Assembly (NCBI GenBank): GCA_903910765.1
Contig: CAIWBA010000291.1
Span: 211,492 to 254,203 of the forward strand
Source of the DNA: an uncultured Bacteroidota bacterium
Lineage (GTDB): Bacteria; Bacteroidota; Bacteroidia; Chitinophagales; Chitinophagaceae
Length of the DNA stretch: 42,712 nucleotides
Direction: 5' to 3'
In this document: positions 1,990-37,762 of the stretch, piece by piece
Layout: every line of letters starts with the position of its first letter
Position numbering within the stretch: position 1 is the stretch's first letter
The notes under the pieces: generated by a model
Seen by the model: the letters and a program-made list of their open reading frames with translations, nothing else
What the model was told of the DNA's origin: nothing
Database searches by the model: none
Made by a program: the position numbers and the translations under genes

Positions 1990-3174
1990 TTAGACGAAAT
2001 CGTATCTTAATTGCTTACGAATTGCATCAACTTTATGAACCTTTATTTGACCTGAGTCAGAAATTTTAGTTCTGCCCTTTAGATGATTTACATCACTTTT
2101 AAATGTTTGTTCACCATCTGGCATTGAAATTGCAATTGAGAAGTCTGACTTATCTAAAGTATAGTCTAATGTTTGACCGTCTATTTTAGTTTTAAGATCT
2201 TGCCATTGAAGTTGTTCCTGGCCAATCTTATCATATGAATCAGTTAATATGATACGAGGTTCGCCCTTTTTCATAATAATATCTTTAACATAAAACTCAA
2301 TAGTATCACCAGATTTATATTGTTTACTAACTTCTTCATAATTTTGAAATTCAGTTTTATGAAGTAATCCAGTAAAGTAATTTTGGAATTCAACAAACAT
2401 TCCAAATTCATATGGTTTATTAGTTAAAATACCTGAGTACTTTTCTCCAATTACTAAATCGTGAACTTTTTGAGGTAGAGTTTGTTTAATATATTTTTTG
2501 TATGAAACAATAAATAAGTCATTTGTTTGATCAAAATTCTCAATCATTACTGGAATTTCTTTATTTAAGTAATCATTAAAATCTCTAATTACGTTAGCTG
2601 CTGCATGAGAGCCTGGTAAAAAGCACTTAACTGTGCCTTTGTAAAGAGCAAGATATCCACCTTTAACTAAGTTTGTAACTTTAACATAGAACCATTTTTC
2701 TGTTTTTAAATAGTCTTCTAAGTCTTCGCGATAGGTTAATGCTGCGCAGCGTTTTTCTGAACCTAAGAAGTCTCCATTATCATTTTTGTAAATAATAACT
2801 TTGAAGCTATGGTTAATTTCATTATGTACTAATAATGATGGCTCTGAACTAAATTCTCTAAATGGAACAAAGATTGTGGATAGAGATGCAAGGTCTTGAA
2901 CTTCAATTACCTTTTCATCAAAGTCAATTTTCTTGGCTGTAACTGTACATATTTTACCAAGTTCAAAATCTTTATTTGTAGGTACAAATGAAGTTTCTGC
3001 ATTTGATGAAAAGTACTTATCGTACAGGTCTTGAGCATATGGCTCTTTACAAAAAATCTTAAAGCCCGATCGTTGATCTTCAGCTGTTAATTTAATTGTT
3101 TGGTTAATCTTAGAATTTCCTTGACGAAATAATAAGTCAAAGTCGATTAGTTCTGTTTGGTTGGTTTTTTGCAT
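1990..3174 (-). CDS. S1-domain (ribosomal protein bS1-like) RNA-binding protein
   Basis: At least two S1-like OB-fold segments: WFYVKVTNLVKGGYLALYKGTVKCFLPGSHAA...VSYKKY and IGEKYSGILTNKPYEFGMFVEFQNYFTGLLHKTEF...FYVKDIIMKKGEPRIILT. Confidence 0.8.
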   Translation of the reverse strand: MQKTNQTELIDFDLLFRQGNSKINQTIKLTAEDQRSGFKIFCKEPYAQDLYDKYFSSNAETSFVPTNKDFELGKICTVTAKKIDFDEKVIEVQDLASLSTIFVPFREFSSEPSLLVHNEINHSFKVIIYKNDNGDFLGSEKRCAALTYREDLEDYLKTEKWFYVKVTNLVKGGYLALYKGTVKCFLPGSHAAANVIRDFNDYLNKEIPVMIENFDQTNDLFIVSYKKYIKQTLPQKVHDLVIGEKYSGILTNKPYEFGMFVEFQNYFTGLLHKTEFQNYEEVSKQYKSGDTIEFYVKDIIMKKGEPRIILTDSYDKIGQEQLQWQDLKTKIDGQTLDYTLDKSDFSIAISMPDGEQTFKSDVNHLKGRTKISDSGQIKVHKVDAIRKQLRYDFV

Positions 3175-7698: not shown

Positions 7699-9285
<1,587 letters not shown>

Positions 9286-10945: not shown

Positions 10946-11365
10946 ATGTCAAAGGCTAAAGAGAGTAAATATTATATTAATAATAGAGATTTTACAAATG
11001 AAATTATTCGATGTAAACACGGTATGCTTAACGAGGTAACTGGTTATCAACACACTGCTGGCGAATTATCCCCAATTGCAATTAACTATTTTATAATTTT
11101 AGCAAACCGTGCAATCTTAAAATTAAGATTTAGTAATCCACTAGATAAAGAAGATTGTATCCAGTCAGCTCTATTAGATCTTCTTAGATATTGGAGAAAC
11201 TTTAATGAAGAAAAATCAAATAATGCATTTGCTTACTTTACTCAAATTGCAAAAAATGGTTATGCAAAAGAGTACAAGAAAATTTATAAACATATAGGTA
11301 AAGGCGAAAAAGTTGAGTTTGTGTCATTAAGCCATTCAGGAGACTCCGAAATTTATTCAATTTAA
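10946..11365 (+). CDS. T4 gp55-like late transcription sigma factor
   Basis: NNRDFTNEII... and FNEEKSNNAFAYFTQIAKNGYAKEYKKI resemble T4 gp55 (NNKDFHEAM..., FDPEKSKNPFAYFTQIIYYAFIRRI); DKEDCIQSALLDLLRYWRNF region-2-like. Confidence 0.8.
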   Translation: MSKAKESKYYINNRDFTNEIIRCKHGMLNEVTGYQHTAGELSPIAINYFIILANRAILKLRFSNPLDKEDCIQSALLDLLRYWRNFNEEKSNNAFAYFTQIAKNGYAKEYKKIYKHIGKGEKVEFVSLSHSGDSEIYSI

Positions 11366-30736: not shown

Positions 30737-30784
30737 TTTGGTCTAAAACAGCAATCCTCGACGATAAATAACAAAAAGACCAAA
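30737..30784. promoter_or_regulatory. 8-bp inverted repeat TTTGGTCT/AGACCAAA flanking a divergent AT-rich promoter-like core
   Basis: Arms 30737-30744 and 30777-30784, between minus gene start 30709 and plus gene start 30788. Confidence 0.5.
30763..30772 (+). promoter_or_regulatory. Candidate late-promoter element GATAAATAAC
   Basis: Shares ATAAATAAC with 1949-1958 (-) and 37794-37803 (+); 15 nt before ATG 30788. Confidence 0.45.
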
Positions 30785-30787
30785 TCA

Positions 30788-32857
30788 ATGCAAGTAGTTG
30801 TCTACAAGATCATTCCAGAGCCAGATAAGAACACGGTCACGTACAGTAAAAATTATAGAATTTTTTCTGCGGCTGAACCTTTACCTGGGGCTGTTAAAAT
30901 TGTAGGATTTGGTGAATCAGTTGACCTAGGCTCTGCATTACCTCAAAATATTATCAGAAAGTTTAGATATTCATTTGATATGGGCAATTGGTCATTATGG
31001 TATGACCTAGATCCTGAAAATTTAACAAATATTGAAGATTTACTATTTAATGAAGCTGATGTATTCTTTGAAGTTAAGTATGAATATGATGATACTACGT
31101 ATGACTCACTAACTACTCCGTTAACCGTTAATTTTATAAAATTTAATATTAAAAGTACACATATTTCTGAATCTTTATATACTCCAACTGTTTATTGTTC
31201 TTCTGAGCGTTGTCCAGCCGTTATTGCTGAGAGAGAAGCATCATTTAAACCATATGAAGTTGGAACAGCTATCGGAATTGCCAAAGAATTAAGTTATCAA
31301 ACCAATAAAATATTTGGACATGAAGTTGTCTATTTTAAAACTGAACCTGACCGACCTGCTGGAGATTTTATATTTAAAGAATGGACACTATTTGAAACAG
31401 TTGACCGAAAATGTGCAAAGGTAGTTGTACCAAATAATACCTTTCCAGATAACAAACCTCAGTTTACTGAATTTGGTATTGATTTTGAAGTTCCATTTGA
31501 AATTCATATGGATCATATTTATTTTCAGTCAATATTTGGACCGGGTACTCAACCTCGTAAAAGAGACTATATGTACTTTCCATTAACTAACCGTATGTAT
31601 GAAATTCAAGGTTCATATCTATACCGCGGATTTATGATGGAGCCGCTCTATTGGAAAATACAATTAACTAAATTCCATCCAAATATTGATATGTTAATGA
31701 AGGTTGGTGATCGTAAATTCCTAGATAATATTATCTTGACTAGCGATGAACTATTTGGAAAACAGGCAGAGGTTCAGAAAAAAGATGCTCTTGATAAAAA
31801 ACAATATAAAACTATTTCCAATAAGTTTGATGAAACTCGTAGATCATTACATCCTGACCTAAATAACCGAATTTTAGATCACACATTTAACTATTCTCCA
31901 TTAATTGAATACTACTATGATATGTCTAGTGTAAAACAGGTAATTGCAAATTATGCAGTTACTTCAAATGGAACTCCTGAAGATCAATACCTAACTCAAG
32001 CTGCTCCATATATAATTTATGCATATGAAGGAAGTAATATATTTGGTAAATGGGAGGCTCGCCAACTAAATACTGGAGATACAAGTATTGGAACTGGTGG
32101 ACAAACTTCAATTAAGATGAATGGTCCAAAAGATTCATACAATCCAGCTCTTGGAAAATATGTAGTAGTTGAAGGTTATAAAACTCTTGCTCTAAATCCA
32201 GCAAAGCGGTCAGATCTTACACTTACCTCAACTGGGGTTATTCAATTTAAACAGTCAGAACATGCAGTAGTTTATAAAGCATTTGCCTCAACTGTTAATA
32301 CTCCAAATATGACATTGAGTGCCTTAGTTAAATTTAATAAGGGCACTCAGGATATCAGAATATTAGATGGATATGATAATTTATTAGGTGCAGGTTTACG
32401 TGTATCCTGTTCACTAGTAGATATTGATGGAATACATGTAAATTCAATCTTCTATGTGCAGATTAATGATACTGCTTATCCATTTAGTGTAGGAGAATTA
32501 GAATATGATAAATGGTATTCGTTAATTGTTCCAGTATCATCTCAATATGGACAACTTCAACTTAATCTATATTCATTTGGACAAGATCCAGCAAATATTA
32601 AAAACTATAATAGTTTAGTTAATGTATATTCAGGTTCTGCAACTCCTGGAAACTTTACATTTGTAACTGAACAAAATTGGGCTCTACCTTCTGCTAATTA
32701 TTCAATTGCAAATATCCGACTATTTAATACAATGGTTCAGCCAGAAGATCATGAATTTATAGTAAGTCAACTATTCATAAGAGATGAATCTCTTCTTGAA
32801 TTAATAGATAATGCCCGACCTAGATTAAATGTACCATTCATTGCAATAAATAGCTAA
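30788..32857 (+). CDS. Virion structural protein (689 aa) with LamG/concanavalin-like C-terminal domain
   Basis: C-terminal NMTLSALVKFNKGTQDIRILDGYDN...YDKWYSLIVPVSSQYGQLQLNLYSFG...YSIANIRLFNTMV resembles LamG-like folds. Confidence 0.55.
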   Translation: MQVVVYKIIPEPDKNTVTYSKNYRIFSAAEPLPGAVKIVGFGESVDLGSALPQNIIRKFRYSFDMGNWSLWYDLDPENLTNIEDLLFNEADVFFEVKYEYDDTTYDSLTTPLTVNFIKFNIKSTHISESLYTPTVYCSSERCPAVIAEREASFKPYEVGTAIGIAKELSYQTNKIFGHEVVYFKTEPDRPAGDFIFKEWTLFETVDRKCAKVVVPNNTFPDNKPQFTEFGIDFEVPFEIHMDHIYFQSIFGPGTQPRKRDYMYFPLTNRMYEIQGSYLYRGFMMEPLYWKIQLTKFHPNIDMLMKVGDRKFLDNIILTSDELFGKQAEVQKKDALDKKQYKTISNKFDETRRSLHPDLNNRILDHTFNYSPLIEYYYDMSSVKQVIANYAVTSNGTPEDQYLTQAAPYIIYAYEGSNIFGKWEARQLNTGDTSIGTGGQTSIKMNGPKDSYNPALGKYVVVEGYKTLALNPAKRSDLTLTSTGVIQFKQSEHAVVYKAFASTVNTPNMTLSALVKFNKGTQDIRILDGYDNLLGAGLRVSCSLVDIDGIHVNSIFYVQINDTAYPFSVGELEYDKWYSLIVPVSSQYGQLQLNLYSFGQDPANIKNYNSLVNVYSGSATPGNFTFVTEQNWALPSANYSIANIRLFNTMVQPEDHEFIVSQLFIRDESLLELIDNARPRLNVPFIAINS

Positions 32858-32864
32858 CAAATAT

Positions 32865-34217
32865 ATGTATAAAGATTTAACAAAAAGCCCACTATTCGAT
32901 AACGTAAAATTAGGATTTGAATTTGAATTCTTTTCTCCAATTTCTCGTTCACAATTAGCTGAGAACTTAACCTCAATTTTAGGAAAAAACGTGGTTAGTA
33001 CAAATGAATATGGTTCTGATATTCCAGTAAGCTATGATACTTTTAAAATTGAACCTGATTTTTCAGGTGGATTTAAAATGAATGAATTAGTTACCGGAGT
33101 ATTACCGTATAGTGAGGCAATCCATGTACTATATAAAGTCTTAAATTTCATTGATGAAAATGGATTTACTACTGAACGAACAGGATTACATATCAATATT
33201 TCATTAAATGAATTTGATCTTGGGCTAAATGAACGTCTTCAAAACTTAAATGTATTCAAATATATCTTAGGACTAGATGAGGCAAAGATTTTTGAATTAT
33301 GGCCATCTGCTAAGTCAAGAATTCAAAAAATTTATAAGAATTCAGTTAGTAATATTTACCCTAAAAATAAATTTTTGGCAGAAACTTCATTAACCTATTC
33401 AAAACCAAATAGTCCACTTGACTTTTCATATCCACATTCAAAATATTTTGGACTAAACTTTGATAAATTAAGTCAAGGTTATCTAGAGGTTAGATATGCA
33501 GGTGGTGTTGATTATCAATTAAAAAGATCAAGTGCAACTGAGTTAATAAACTATATTTCTGAATCTCTATATAATACTCTACAAATAAACCATTCATATT
33601 CACTTGATGAACAGAAAAAAGTTCATGATGTTATGAAGAAGCAGAGAGAAAATACGCTGGCTATTAAAACATATGAAAATTTCAAAAAGAATTTTCCAGA
33701 AATTGAATTGTATATTGACTTAAGAGATGATCCTAGAATTATTGAATCAAATTACCTAAATCTTCGTGAAAAATTATTTGACCTAATTACATTTGGTAAG
33801 ATCAAAAAGGGTCAAGTAAATTATGATACTCAAAATAAACGAGTTCAGTTAAAAGAGTCTAAACTTGAAGAAGGTTTTGGAATCCATGATATTGACCTTA
33901 TTAACTGTAAAATTGAGGCTGAAATTTCTAACTGTACTCTATATGGATGCAAAGTTAGATCGTCTCATGTTACTGAGTGTAGAATATTAACCGGTAATGA
34001 TATTAGATATTGTCATTTAGATGAATGTCTATTTGAAAGAGGTTGTCATAACCGAATTGACTTAAGTTATATTAAGAGTTCTCCTGAAACAATTATTTAT
34101 GCTGACTTAAATGAATGTATTGTTCGATCAGGTATTATTTCATTGGATTCAAAAGTTGATAATAAAACGGAAGTTCTTTCAGGAAATTCAAAAGGCAGTA
34201 AGAGTCAAATAAAATAA
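32865..34217 (+). CDS. Amidoligase-family enzyme (glutamine-synthetase-like carboxylate-amine ligase) with C-terminal beta-helix/pentapeptide-like repeats
   Basis: LGFEFEFFSP (E-x-E), RTGLHINISL (His), YLEVRYAGG (E-x-R) match the amidoligase signature. C-terminus DLINCKIEAEISNCTLYGCKVRSSHVTECRILTGNDIRYCHLDECLFERGCHNRIDLSYI is short-period and Cys-rich. Confidence 0.7.
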   Translation: MYKDLTKSPLFDNVKLGFEFEFFSPISRSQLAENLTSILGKNVVSTNEYGSDIPVSYDTFKIEPDFSGGFKMNELVTGVLPYSEAIHVLYKVLNFIDENGFTTERTGLHINISLNEFDLGLNERLQNLNVFKYILGLDEAKIFELWPSAKSRIQKIYKNSVSNIYPKNKFLAETSLTYSKPNSPLDFSYPHSKYFGLNFDKLSQGYLEVRYAGGVDYQLKRSSATELINYISESLYNTLQINHSYSLDEQKKVHDVMKKQRENTLAIKTYENFKKNFPEIELYIDLRDDPRIIESNYLNLREKLFDLITFGKIKKGQVNYDTQNKRVQLKESKLEEGFGIHDIDLINCKIEAEISNCTLYGCKVRSSHVTECRILTGNDIRYCHLDECLFERGCHNRIDLSYIKSSPETIIYADLNECIVRSGIISLDSKVDNKTEVLSGNSKGSKSQIK

Positions 34218-34240: not shown

Positions 34241-36769
34241 ATGGCAGTACAATTAAAAATATCAAGTATTAAATCAATAAACGGTTCAAGTTTAAATACC
34301 ATTGTTGATTTGACTAACTTTAACTTTAGCACAATCAAGTCAGCAATTGATGAATTTTTAACAACGATTAATTATTCTCAACTTAATGGGGATATTTCAG
34401 TTGATATTCAAGGAATCACTACTAATACACTTATTGTTAAGGACGGATTAACTGTATATGGAGCTCAACAAATGAATGGCACATATCCAGAGGTAATAAA
34501 CATGTATCCAACTGGTGCAATTACAGCAAAAAATGTTGTAGTTGAAGATGTACTTGAAGGCAAGCGACTTAGACTTAAATTATATGGAATACTTCCTCCT
34601 ACTGCTGTTCCTGGAGAAATTGTCTATATTACTGGACAGCCTGGTAGAATTGAAGGTTTTTACGGATACTTAAATTCAACAGGTTGGTGTCTACTTAGTT
34701 GTGGTGGAGGTGGTGATGGCCAGTGTACTGCAACTATTACGCGGTCAGTTACACCTGACACAATAACTGGAGATGGAATATTAGTATCTGATGGATTATT
34801 ACCAATGCCTTCACCAATTCCAACTACTGAATACTTATTATTTGTTAATGGACACCAAATTACGGTAGGTGATGGTGATATTACTGCAGCTGCCTATTTT
34901 AGTAAAGATGGTGGAACAACTGCAACCATTTATTCGCAAGTTGATGTAACTGATTCACTTTATTGGAATACTGTCTCTGCTGGTTATGGATTAGATAGTG
35001 GAGATACAGTTACGTTAATGTATTCAACTGTTGATACTAATTGCGCTGGTGCAAATGGCTCAACGTGTATAACAAATATAGTAACTACTGGAAATACTGA
35101 ATCCTTATTTTCTCAAGTTGGAGTTGACATTATTATGGATGACTCTGCTCCAGAAAATAATTATATTACCGTTTGTACACTACCTATTCCAACAATTGAA
35201 CCAGATGGAATTAGTTTACCAACAAATTATCTATTAACTAATTCAGTATTAGCTTTTCAAATTACAACGCCATTTATTAGTTGTGCAACAATTGGATTTG
35301 CACTACCTGATGGAATAAGTGAAATTGACTTTAACTCAGTTATAATATTCCAAGAAGTATTAGGAGTTTACACAGATGTTACTATTTTAACTGGTCCATA
35401 TGCGCCTGATTATTCAAGCCGTACCATTTATGCAAGTGCTTGTGAGTATGGATCATTTTATTTAATACCAATTTATGTAGCTCCAGTTATACCTACTACG
35501 ACTACCACAACTACTGTAGCTCCTACGACTACCACAACTACTGTAGCTCCTACGACTACTACAACAACGGTAGCTCCTACGACTACTACAACAACGGTAA
35601 CTCCTACGACTACTACAACGACCGTAGCTCCTACGACTACTACAACGACCGTAGCTCCTACGACTACTACAACTACGGCTGAACCTACGACTACTACAAC
35701 TACGGCAGCAATAACAACAACTACTACAACCGTTGCAGCTTTACCATTTATTTCAACATGGAGAACATCATCGCCTAGCGAAACTATTAATTTACCGTAT
35801 GATGCAGTTGGTACATACAGCGGAACAATCGATTGGGGAGATGGTACTATTGTTGCAAATAGTTATGCAAATAGAAGTCATACATATGCAATCGCTGGAG
35901 ATTATACAGTAACGGTCACAGGTACAACTACTGGATTTGGATTTAATAATGACCCAACTAACCGTCTTAACTTATTAACAGTTGACCAATGGGGTACTTT
36001 AATTATTTCAGATGGAGGTGTTCAATTTGGTGGATGTACGAATCTTACTCTATCTGGAGTTAGTGATATACTTGACTTAACTGGAATAACCAGTTTTAAT
36101 GGAATGTTCCAAAATTGTACCTCATTAACTACCGTTAATAATATAAATTCATGGAATGTAAGTAGTGTAACCGATATGTCAAATATGTTTGCCTTAGCAA
36201 CTTCATTTAACCAAAATATAGGTGCATGGAATGTAAGTAGTGTAACCGATATGCAAAATATGTTTAGTGGTGTAACAAACTTTAATCAAGATCTTAGTAC
36301 ATGGAATGTTGGACAAGTAACCAACATGGCATATATGTTTAAAGGTACTAAATTTAATCAAGATATTAGTTTATGGAATGTAGGTAATGTAACCAATATG
36401 AATAATATGTTTGCAAATATTACTACATTTAATCAAGATATTAGTTCATGGGACGTAAGCAAAGTAACTGATATGTCATACATGTTCCAAGCATGTACAG
36501 TATTTAACTCAGATCTAGGTTCATGGAATGTAGGTAACTTAATTAATGCAACTCAGCTATTTAGAGGATGCTCTGCATTTAATCAAGATATTGGTTTATG
36601 GAATGTTTCAAATACAACTACTATGACTGGTATGTTTATTAATGCAAATTCATTTAATCAAGACCTAAGCGGTTGGTGTGTATCATTAATAGCTTCACCT
36701 CCAACTAATTTTGCAACAGGTGCTTCATCTTGGTCATTACCTCAACCAGTTTGGGGTACTTGTCCATAA
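34241..36769 (+). CDS. Tail fibre/adhesin (842 aa): fibre-like N-terminus, Thr-rich mucin-like linker, PKD-like domain, DUF285 (BspA-like) repeats
   Basis: (PTTTTTTVA)n linker; TYSGTIDWGDGTIVANSYANRSHTYAIAGDYTVTVTG (PKD); repeated WNVSSVTDMSNMFxxxxxFNQNIGAWNV units (DUF285). Confidence 0.8.
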   Translation: MAVQLKISSIKSINGSSLNTIVDLTNFNFSTIKSAIDEFLTTINYSQLNGDISVDIQGITTNTLIVKDGLTVYGAQQMNGTYPEVINMYPTGAITAKNVVVEDVLEGKRLRLKLYGILPPTAVPGEIVYITGQPGRIEGFYGYLNSTGWCLLSCGGGGDGQCTATITRSVTPDTITGDGILVSDGLLPMPSPIPTTEYLLFVNGHQITVGDGDITAAAYFSKDGGTTATIYSQVDVTDSLYWNTVSAGYGLDSGDTVTLMYSTVDTNCAGANGSTCITNIVTTGNTESLFSQVGVDIIMDDSAPENNYITVCTLPIPTIEPDGISLPTNYLLTNSVLAFQITTPFISCATIGFALPDGISEIDFNSVIIFQEVLGVYTDVTILTGPYAPDYSSRTIYASACEYGSFYLIPIYVAPVIPTTTTTTTVAPTTTTTTVAPTTTTTTVAPTTTTTTVTPTTTTTTVAPTTTTTTVAPTTTTTTAEPTTTTTTAAITTTTTTVAALPFISTWRTSSPSETINLPYDAVGTYSGTIDWGDGTIVANSYANRSHTYAIAGDYTVTVTGTTTGFGFNNDPTNRLNLLTVDQWGTLIISDGGVQFGGCTNLTLSGVSDILDLTGITSFNGMFQNCTSLTTVNNINSWNVSSVTDMSNMFALATSFNQNIGAWNVSSVTDMQNMFSGVTNFNQDLSTWNVGQVTNMAYMFKGTKFNQDISLWNVGNVTNMNNMFANITTFNQDISSWDVSKVTDMSYMFQACTVFNSDLGSWNVGNLINATQLFRGCSAFNQDIGLWNVSNTTTMTGMFINANSFNQDLSGWCVSLIASPPTNFATGASSWSLPQPVWGTCP
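35492..35740 (+). repeat. 27-bp tandem repeat encoding PTTTTTTVA (eight P-starting units plus a degenerate ninth)
   Basis: CCTACGACTACTACAACNACNGTAGCT units read directly. Confidence 0.9.
36091..36690 (+). repeat. DUF285/BspA-like repeats (about 7 units)
   Basis: FNGMFQNCTSLTT...WNVSSVTDMSNMF..WNVSSVTDMQNMF..WNVGQVTNMAYMF..WNVGNVTNMNNMF..WDVSKVTDMSYMF..WNVGNLINATQLF..WNVSNTTTMTGMF; exact DNA repeat TGGAATGTAAGTAGTGTAACCGATATG in two adjacent units. Confidence 0.85.
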
Positions 36770-36808: not shown

Positions 36809-37762
36809 ATGTTAACGAAGAAAACTATTTTTATATCAGCTCAACCTGACCATCAATATTTTCATTGGCAAGTTGAGGTTGTAATTCATGATTTTATAAA
36901 AAATGGAATTAATCCAAATTGGATTGAAATTCTATTTGCTTATAATGATTCACCTAGCCCAGAAGGCTTAGCTTTAGCCGAAAAATATCCAATGGTTAGA
37001 TTCTTTTTCTATAAAAAGAGAGTAACTGATAATTTTGGATATATTCCAATTCTTAGACCTGACATTCTTGAACAACACTGGATTGCCTATCCGGAATTAC
37101 GTGGAGAAACTGTATTTTACCATGATTCTGATATTATTTTTAGAAAACTTCCAGATTTTGACTCAATGCACACTGATCTGTATTGGTATGTAAGTGATAC
37201 TGTTTCTTATATTGGAGCAAACTATATTAAAAGTAAATCGCATGACCTATTTACTGACCTATGTAGCTTAGCTATGATTACTCCTGAAATGGTTGAAAAC
37301 AATCAGGCAGTTTCAGGTGGAGCTCAATATTTAATGAAAGGGGTTACCTCTGCTTTTTGGAAAGGTGTAATTGATGACTCATTAACTATGTATAAGTATA
37401 TGGCAGATCGTGAAACCTATGAACGCTCCACACTGTCTCCAGAAGAGTTAAAAACCTATAACCCTATTCAAAAATGGTGTGCAGATATGTGGGCTGTTCT
37501 TTGGGGAGGATGGAAAATGGGAGCTCAATCGGTAATTACCTCTGACCTAAGTTTTAGTTGGGGAACTTCCTCAATTGATGACTATAATAGTTGTCCAATC
37601 ATGCATAATGCTGGTGTAACTGAGGATAGAAAACCTGATCTTTTTTATAAAGCTGATTATCGAGATATAAGCCCATTTGATACGGATCTATCTAATATTA
37701 AACCTGATACTGCCTCTGCTAAATATGTAGAAGCAATTCTTTACGCAAAAGAAAGACGATAA
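36809..37762 (+). CDS. Glycosyltransferase-like protein (GT-A-like, DxD motif)
   Basis: VFYHDSDIIFRKLPDFDSMHTDLYWYVSD (DxD context), KWCADMWAVLWGGWKMGAQSVI, CPIMHNAG; no transmembrane segment apparent. Confidence 0.6.
   Translation: MLTKKTIFISAQPDHQYFHWQVEVVIHDFIKNGINPNWIEILFAYNDSPSPEGLALAEKYPMVRFFFYKKRVTDNFGYIPILRPDILEQHWIAYPELRGETVFYHDSDIIFRKLPDFDSMHTDLYWYVSDTVSYIGANYIKSKSHDLFTDLCSLAMITPEMVENNQAVSGGAQYLMKGVTSAFWKGVIDDSLTMYKYMADRETYERSTLSPEELKTYNPIQKWCADMWAVLWGGWKMGAQSVITSDLSFSWGTSSIDDYNSCPIMHNAGVTEDRKPDLFYKADYRDISPFDTDLSNIKPDTASAKYVEAILYAKERR

Follow-up and report, generated by a model that had tools for sequence, protein, structure and literature searches.

The window, the whole stretch of DNA analysed here (42,712 nucleotides), forms the end (42.7 kb) of a phage contig of 254,203 bp that was binned in a bacterial MAG. 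Between a gene for a putative neck protein and a gene for a fibre-like protein it carries a 450-aa open reading frame that had been singled out, at the coordinates where we also find it, as an amidoligase fused to a beta-helix-like tail. The features on which the argument draws are as follows.

10946 to 11365, plus strand: late sigma factor, T4 gp55-like (phrog_234, E=4e-17), presumed to recognise the late motif.
30763 to 30772, plus strand: late-promoter motif GATAAATAAC, directly 5' of the neck gene.
30788 to 32857, plus strand: predicted neck protein Hc2, T4 gp14-like, with a LamG-like C-terminal domain (phrog_679; LamG/pentraxin fold match).
32845 to 32853, plus strand: weaker late-promoter variant AATAAATAG, directly 5' of the amidoligase start.
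32865 to 34217, plus strand: amidoligase/beta-helix fusion protein, 450 aa (ORF; PF12224; full-length relatives; AlphaFold2 model).
32901 to 33497, plus strand: predicted Amidoligase_2 domain, residues 13 to 211 (profile match, residue alignments, Foldseek).
33525 to 33794, plus strand: helical linker, residues 221 to 310 (DSSP on the AlphaFold2 model).
33807 to 34184, plus strand: pentapeptide-type beta-helix, residues 315 to 440 (period-5 test; AlphaFold2 model; PF13599 in the relative L003).
34241 to 36769, plus strand: fibre-like protein, a Thr-rich linker with DUF285 repeats (PF03382, E=2.9e-97), which adjoins the amidoligase also in relatives.
36809 to 37762, plus strand: next gene downstream, conserved (phrog_4417, E=9.3e-63; gene context in relatives), glycosyltransferase-like by eye.

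The upstream gene, separated by 7 nt from the start codon of the amidoligase, had been described as encoding a LamG-like virion protein. That description holds for its C-terminal domain; judged by sequence, the gene as a whole is predicted to encode a head-closure Hc2, T4 gp14-like neck protein. phrog_679 (Hc2) matches 10 of the 12 members of this family, with a best E of 5.3e-8, and the Pfam T4_neck-protein profile gives 19 bits, below its cut-off of 25; a PDB sequence search with the protein found no match. The C-terminal part of the AlphaFold2 model matches LamG/pentraxin folds. Because the core is poorly modelled, the fold search supports the LamG-like part only. A T4-type late-promoter motif lies 5' of the neck-amidoligase gene pair. 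On the phage contig, counting both strands, [AGT]ATAAATAA(C) occurs 80 times, and 55 of these copies lie 5 to 45 nt upstream of an ORF start, where 1.7 would be expected; TATAAATA is not enriched there (2 seen versus 11 expected).

PF12224 (Amidoligase_2) matches residues 13 to 211 of the fusion protein at E=1.4e-9 and 38.6 bits, above the cut-off of 22 (39.1 bits in a genome-wide search). The hallmarks first noticed, GFEFEF, GLHINIS and EVRYAGG, are borne out. GFEFEF, NELVTG and GLHIN align with G-x-E-x-E, E-I and G-x-H-x-N, the equivalents of ExE, D, E, H and N being invariant in the 26 bacterial proteins compared, and the E-x-R motif is matched in the amidoligase of Geobacillus phage GR1 ("TIEFRHHQGT"). 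The residues in question are E19, E21, D65, E74, H109, N111, Y194, E208 and R210, and all those predicted to serve Mg/ATP binding and catalysis (ExE, D, E, HxN, ExR) are present in the window protein. ExE, H and ExR correspond to the known metal/ATP ligands of the glutamine synthetase/GCS superfamily.

An AlphaFold2 model built from 22 window and IMG/VR sequences (mean pLDDT 84.5, pTM 0.77, with pLDDT about 90 or more over the beta-helix) shows an alpha/beta N-terminal domain and, at residues 316 to 422, a beta-helix whose short strands are mostly 5 residues apart. Among solved structures, the best Foldseek matches are the bifunctional glutathione synthetase GshF (3ln7, E=2.8e-4) and then glutamine synthetases; GshF, GS 5dm3 and GmaS 9qur share the fold with E values of 2.8e-4 to 1.5e-3 and probabilities of 0.94 to 0.99, at TM-scores of only 0.2 to 0.3. 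Sequence searches of the PDB gave zero matches at E<=10, and the top hit of a profile search (E=0.016) was an unrelated protein. In a structural search of viral models, many proteins labelled "amidoligase enzyme" match in part, with E down to 1.5e-11, and A0A6J5PQ40 of an uncultured Caudovirales phage matches over the full length (TM 0.91, 35% identity). This last protein belongs to the same family; its database entry ("Uncharacterized protein") describes neither function nor context. Taken together, profile, residues and model place the N-terminal domain in Amidoligase_2, with a predicted glutamine-synthetase-like fold and intact predicted Mg/ATP residues, an outcome on which the original prediction had been staked.

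A short-period, Cys-rich repeat had been proposed for the C-terminal third. The repeat is real: its hydrophobicity peaks at period 5.0 (family mean power 4.15 versus 1.01 in shuffles, maximum 1.22), and 8 cysteines fall in residues 335 to 425, with 0 in residues 1 to 330. Its extent is nearer the last quarter of the protein, and its type is that of a pentapeptide repeat. By inspection, the cysteines appear to sit where a helix of the pentapeptide type takes a small residue, so that the Cys-rich appearance would be a product of the 5-residue repeat. PF13599 (pentapeptide) reaches E=5.6e-6 and 26.8 bits in the best relative, L003, which is below the Pfam cut-off, and the Pfam pentapeptide profile gives 11.8 bits on the window protein, against a cut-off of 38. 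Thus, of the features of the pentapeptide-repeat (Rfr) fold, the protein has the 5-residue period and, in the model, the beta-helix, and we call the domain pentapeptide-type rather than file it as a member because it stays under the Pfam cut-off. The Foldseek matches to EfsQnr, QnrB1 and MfpA are weak. A trimeric tailspike-type beta-helix was considered and rejected, given that the repeat is of the 5-residue pentapeptide type. For the same reason trimerisation, one of two jobs suggested for the helix, is not indicated; the other, docking, is plausible. Pentapeptide-repeat fusions are known from another tail-like machine, the type VI secretion system, in which DUF2169-pentapeptide-repeat proteins, noncanonical spike accessories, likewise carry the repeat at the C terminus (PMC11883445). 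Those proteins have an unrelated N-terminal domain and belong to the T6SS spike, not to a phage neck or baseplate, and the likeness is one of analogy only.

The full-length fusion occurs as a single copy in phages of about 250 to 735 kb. One IMG/VR scan gave 383 relatives; the near relatives of the window phage in IMG/VR measure 270 to 271 kb. In the phage collection, the fusion is present in six uncultured megaphage records of 462 to 735 kb (two records, both 735,411 bp, share one match), and the only other sequence match there is a marginal one to the canonical amidoligase of GR1, the sole isolate matched. Nineteen of the 20 long records searched carry the gene, in single copy save for one weak partial second match. 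One scan of bacterial genome contigs for carriers yielded only a partial match, on a Burkholderiales MAG contig. At one locus (L050:4409-5792) the amidoligase frame is split in two (311 + 125 aa), probably by a frameshift or an assembly error. The moraphage paper lists nine genomes with a "glutamine synthetase", a label that could stand for either true GlnA or the tail-linked amidoligase family. In the literature searched on amidoligases together with phage, jumbo phage or virion, of which coverage was partial, we found no description of the fusion; an earlier one may exist elsewhere.

Linkage to tail genes in relatives had been named as a point on which the prediction should stand or fall, and it was found. 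Neighbouring genes were clustered in 91 non-redundant loci from seven clades and named by PHROGs, Pfam and PDB; as core genes we counted the gp5-like hub, gp53, gp13/Ad2, gp25, gp14/Hc2 and gp6, at a distance of five genes or fewer. A core neck or baseplate gene lies within that distance at 71 of the 91 loci (78%), versus 17% of the genes on the window contig under the same rule. The 91 loci are related by descent and are not 91 independent tests; gene order differs between the clades, and each of the seven includes loci close to neck or baseplate genes. In clade A, to which the window belongs, the order is Hc2-amidoligase-fibre and all 15 loci have a core gene within reach. So do all 14 of clade B, with the order hub-1699 aa-S1-amidoligase-Ad2-gp25-gp6. 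In megaphages it is mostly gp53 or the hub that lies near the amidoligase; a core gene is within reach in 31/39 loci of the L004-like clade, and three small clades give 1/1, 2/2 and 4/5. The L003-like (735 kb) clade has a core tail gene that close in only 4 of 15 loci. The gp13-type neck neighbour Ad2 is matched by phrog_211 (E=7e-9) and by gp13 in the PDB (E=1.8e-5); the assignment of gp25 is weak alone (E=0.002) and fits the position of the gene beside gp6. When we anchored instead on the neck gene, 62 of 80 loci carried an amidoligase homologue, most of them directly downstream; of the remainder, 9 break off too soon and another 9, which are more distant, have none nearby. A place in a tail/fibre gene cluster had been noted, and the link to virion genes in relatives supports it, with the qualification that the anchor is as much neck and baseplate as fibre.

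At about 35 loci a DHH-family-like protein (PF01368, E=3.9e-5, below the cut-off) is encoded one or two genes from the amidoligase, for example at the megaphage loci L004:13850-16126 and L194:13503-15167, and some copies have a capsid-targeting-like start.

Of the 134 unique sequences, 104, some as low as about 25% identity, keep all eight of the positions E19, E21, D65, E74, H109, N111, E208 and R210. Since the set is kept in most lineages over such deep divergence, the residues are presumably used. In others they are changed. Clade B (22 sequences; L057-L086) has H109Q and N111G, and also Y194N, and L174 has H109Q with N111S; the parallel H109Q in two separate lineages could reflect a change in how metal or substrate is used and not an inactive enzyme. 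In the L255-L266 lineage, which lies directly behind the neck gene and still matches the family profile at E of about 1e-97, all eight residues are changed, from EEDEHNER to TDLRKDTK, with one member keeping N111. The orthologue in the L275 record, between gp6 and a fibre gene, reads IEKVKNFQN over nine positions (Y194 included) and appears dead as well. According to the trees, active-site residues were lost separately in at least three lineages; tree support bearing on one loss or two for the L275-record copy and the L255 lineage ranges from 0.34 to 0.85.

The pattern of loss is selective. Intact sequences share 38 near-invariant columns; of these, the dead clade retains none of the 8 catalytic ones versus 18 of the 30 others (Fisher p=0.0035). 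That exactly these eight are lost while most other near-invariant columns are kept argues that they are a functional set in the other lineages. Whole-gene dN/dS is 0.042 to 0.053 for dead pairs versus 0.062 for intact clade-A pairs and is similarly low in both domains, these values being approximate with dS near saturation. The whole protein is thus kept after the active site is lost, which points to a binding or structural job. Catalysis is therefore not the whole story, in that at least three lineages lost catalytic residues and kept the entire protein, under strong purifying selection where this was measured.

The domain is that of other Amidoligase_2 proteins, with which (GR1 UDY80723.1 and the 26 bacterial proteins) it shares the residue set GxExE, D, E-[IL]-[VI], GxHx[NH] and ExR and the predicted glutamine-synthetase-like fold; what is new is the fusion, the tail linkage, the absence of a partner and the dead orthologues. 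The bacterial loci have, in 25 of 26 cases, a conserved neighbour of class-I GATase-like sequence, and in GR1 a gamma-glutamylcyclotransferase adjoins the amidoligase. In contrast, the protein of the window family has a beta-helix fused to it and sits among neck and baseplate genes. A GATase-like peptidase or Aig2/GGCT partner is typical of Amidoligase_2 though not strictly defining; on the 254,203-bp contig we looked for a GATase or GGACT gene and found none, in keeping with the earlier remark that no GAT-II or peptidase partner was visible.

How might these observations fit together? A tail-docked ligase is the simplest joint account of dead copies kept whole and of a residue set kept in most lineages. 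We put at about even the chance that the fusion protein, encoded in single copy, serves late in the tail morphogenesis of jumbo phages and megaphages, docked by its beta-helix and, in most lineages including the window phage, also active as a ligase. In those lineages, we infer, its target is probably a tail, neck or fibre protein, on which it would make an amide bond at the expense of ATP. One can envision that the C-terminal beta-helix and the overall fold dock it to a protein of the neck, baseplate or fibre base, a binding or structural function that would be retained in every lineage. The N-terminal domain would bind Mg-ATP and activate a carboxylate as an acyl phosphate; an amide bond would then be formed on a nearby structural protein, either as an isopeptide cross-link or by the addition of an amino acid or amine, and would make the neck or tail tougher or bring it to maturity. 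Because the neighbouring gene changes from clade to clade, the loci point to no one substrate. The protein may be present in the virion or only during assembly. Carried further, the fusion could represent a phage-encoded, tail-docked protein ligase, forming ATP-driven amide or isopeptide bonds in giant-phage necks, baseplates or fibres, with dead orthologues turned into pure tail proteins; in this broader form we offer the idea only tentatively.

Separate active-site losses without gene loss, a fully dead N-terminal domain under constraint equal to that on an intact one, and dead copies that keep their locus and neighbours would all suit a purely structural protein, in which the glutamine-synthetase fold is a tail building block or assembly chaperone in every lineage and the residues are a nucleotide or metal structural switch, making no bond on another protein. 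Conservation of all eight residues in most sequences and the loss of exactly the catalytic set in the dead clade weigh against this, and we consider it unlikely, if worth keeping in mind. We are more doubtful that the enzyme acts on the host, whether on peptides of its cell wall, on a polymer at its surface or on a translation factor. Host-type targets for bacterial and phage Amidoligase_2 proteins in general were reportedly proposed by Iyer et al. in 2009, an S1-domain (translation-type) gene is close by in clade B and L001, and VanY-like genes lie near the amidoligase in megaphages. However, the phage contig lacks the GATase/GGACT partner, the late motif and a neck gene stand directly upstream, and dead orthologues are kept at the same place; modification of the host cell wall, an option in the original prediction, is not favoured.

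A role in making a small metabolite of the gamma-glutamyl type or in capping a peptide, with a tail location that is incidental (late-operon hitch-hiking), would fit the varying gene order and the nearest solved folds, GshF and glutamine synthetase being small-molecule enzymes. It seems improbable, given that neck and baseplate linkage recurs in seven clades in different orders, that the fused beta-helix is conserved throughout and that the persistence of fully dead copies is unexplained by a metabolic role. Many phages do have "Amidoligase enzyme" proteins of similar predicted fold, so that the gene might be an ordinary catalogued phage amidoligase with no special tail role. This we regard as very improbable: the family stands apart in sequence, with the phage-collection matches confined to the megaphage records and marginal GR1, and fusion, linkage and dead orthologues are found in the tail-linked family.

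If the tail-docked ligase is real, it bears on what gives very large virions their strength. The literature we found contains no account of an enzyme forming amide bonds on phage tails, and virion maturation by such a ligase would be distinct from autocatalytic cross-linking of the HK97 type. PafA and Dop have a fold related to that of carboxylate-amine ligases. The fusion protein does not belong with them by sequence: it matches no PDB chain, and they are absent from its best 50 fold matches in Foldseek. Chemistry of this sort on proteins nevertheless has a precedent in pupylation, where the Pup ligase PafA/Dop, related to the carboxylate-amine ligases, attaches Pup to lysines of proteins (PMC3511204). 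The family also provides a testable system, a gene present in single copy and tied to neck and baseplate genes, with intact and naturally dead orthologues to set side by side, and it illustrates how the fold of a metabolic enzyme was taken into a tail locus and how its active-site residues were lost repeatedly. The fusion gene is in addition a candidate marker for jumbo phages and megaphages.

Several other features of the window phage were apparent. A Shine-Dalgarno sequence is present in 3 of 275 ORF leaders (20 nt), versus 7.8% of random 20-mers, and this near-absence suggests a Bacteroidota host; for a CRISPR link to a host, Cas1 was not found in the assembly. A short start peptide of the type MKYIKLFE.. 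/ MKNVIKRFTQFVNE begins 33 of 276 ORFs, versus 2% in internal control stretches, and 16 of these lie behind the late motif; the observation extends over the window phage contig (loci L195-L205) and megaphage loci L001-L005. Such peptides resemble T4 capsid targeting sequences, and the ORFs that bear them may encode proteins packaged in the head and injected. The amidoligase itself was considered as a packaged head protein and rejected, its N terminus being without the capsid-targeting-like peptide common in other proteins of this phage. On the minus strand of the window are a ribonucleotide reductase small subunit (826-1788; phrog_86, E=1.2e-60), a GroEL-like ORF, recognized by eye (7699-9282), and an S1-domain protein (1990-3174; PF00575, E=1e-10), a homologue of which adjoins the amidoligase in clade B (L057-L086) and is close by in L001.
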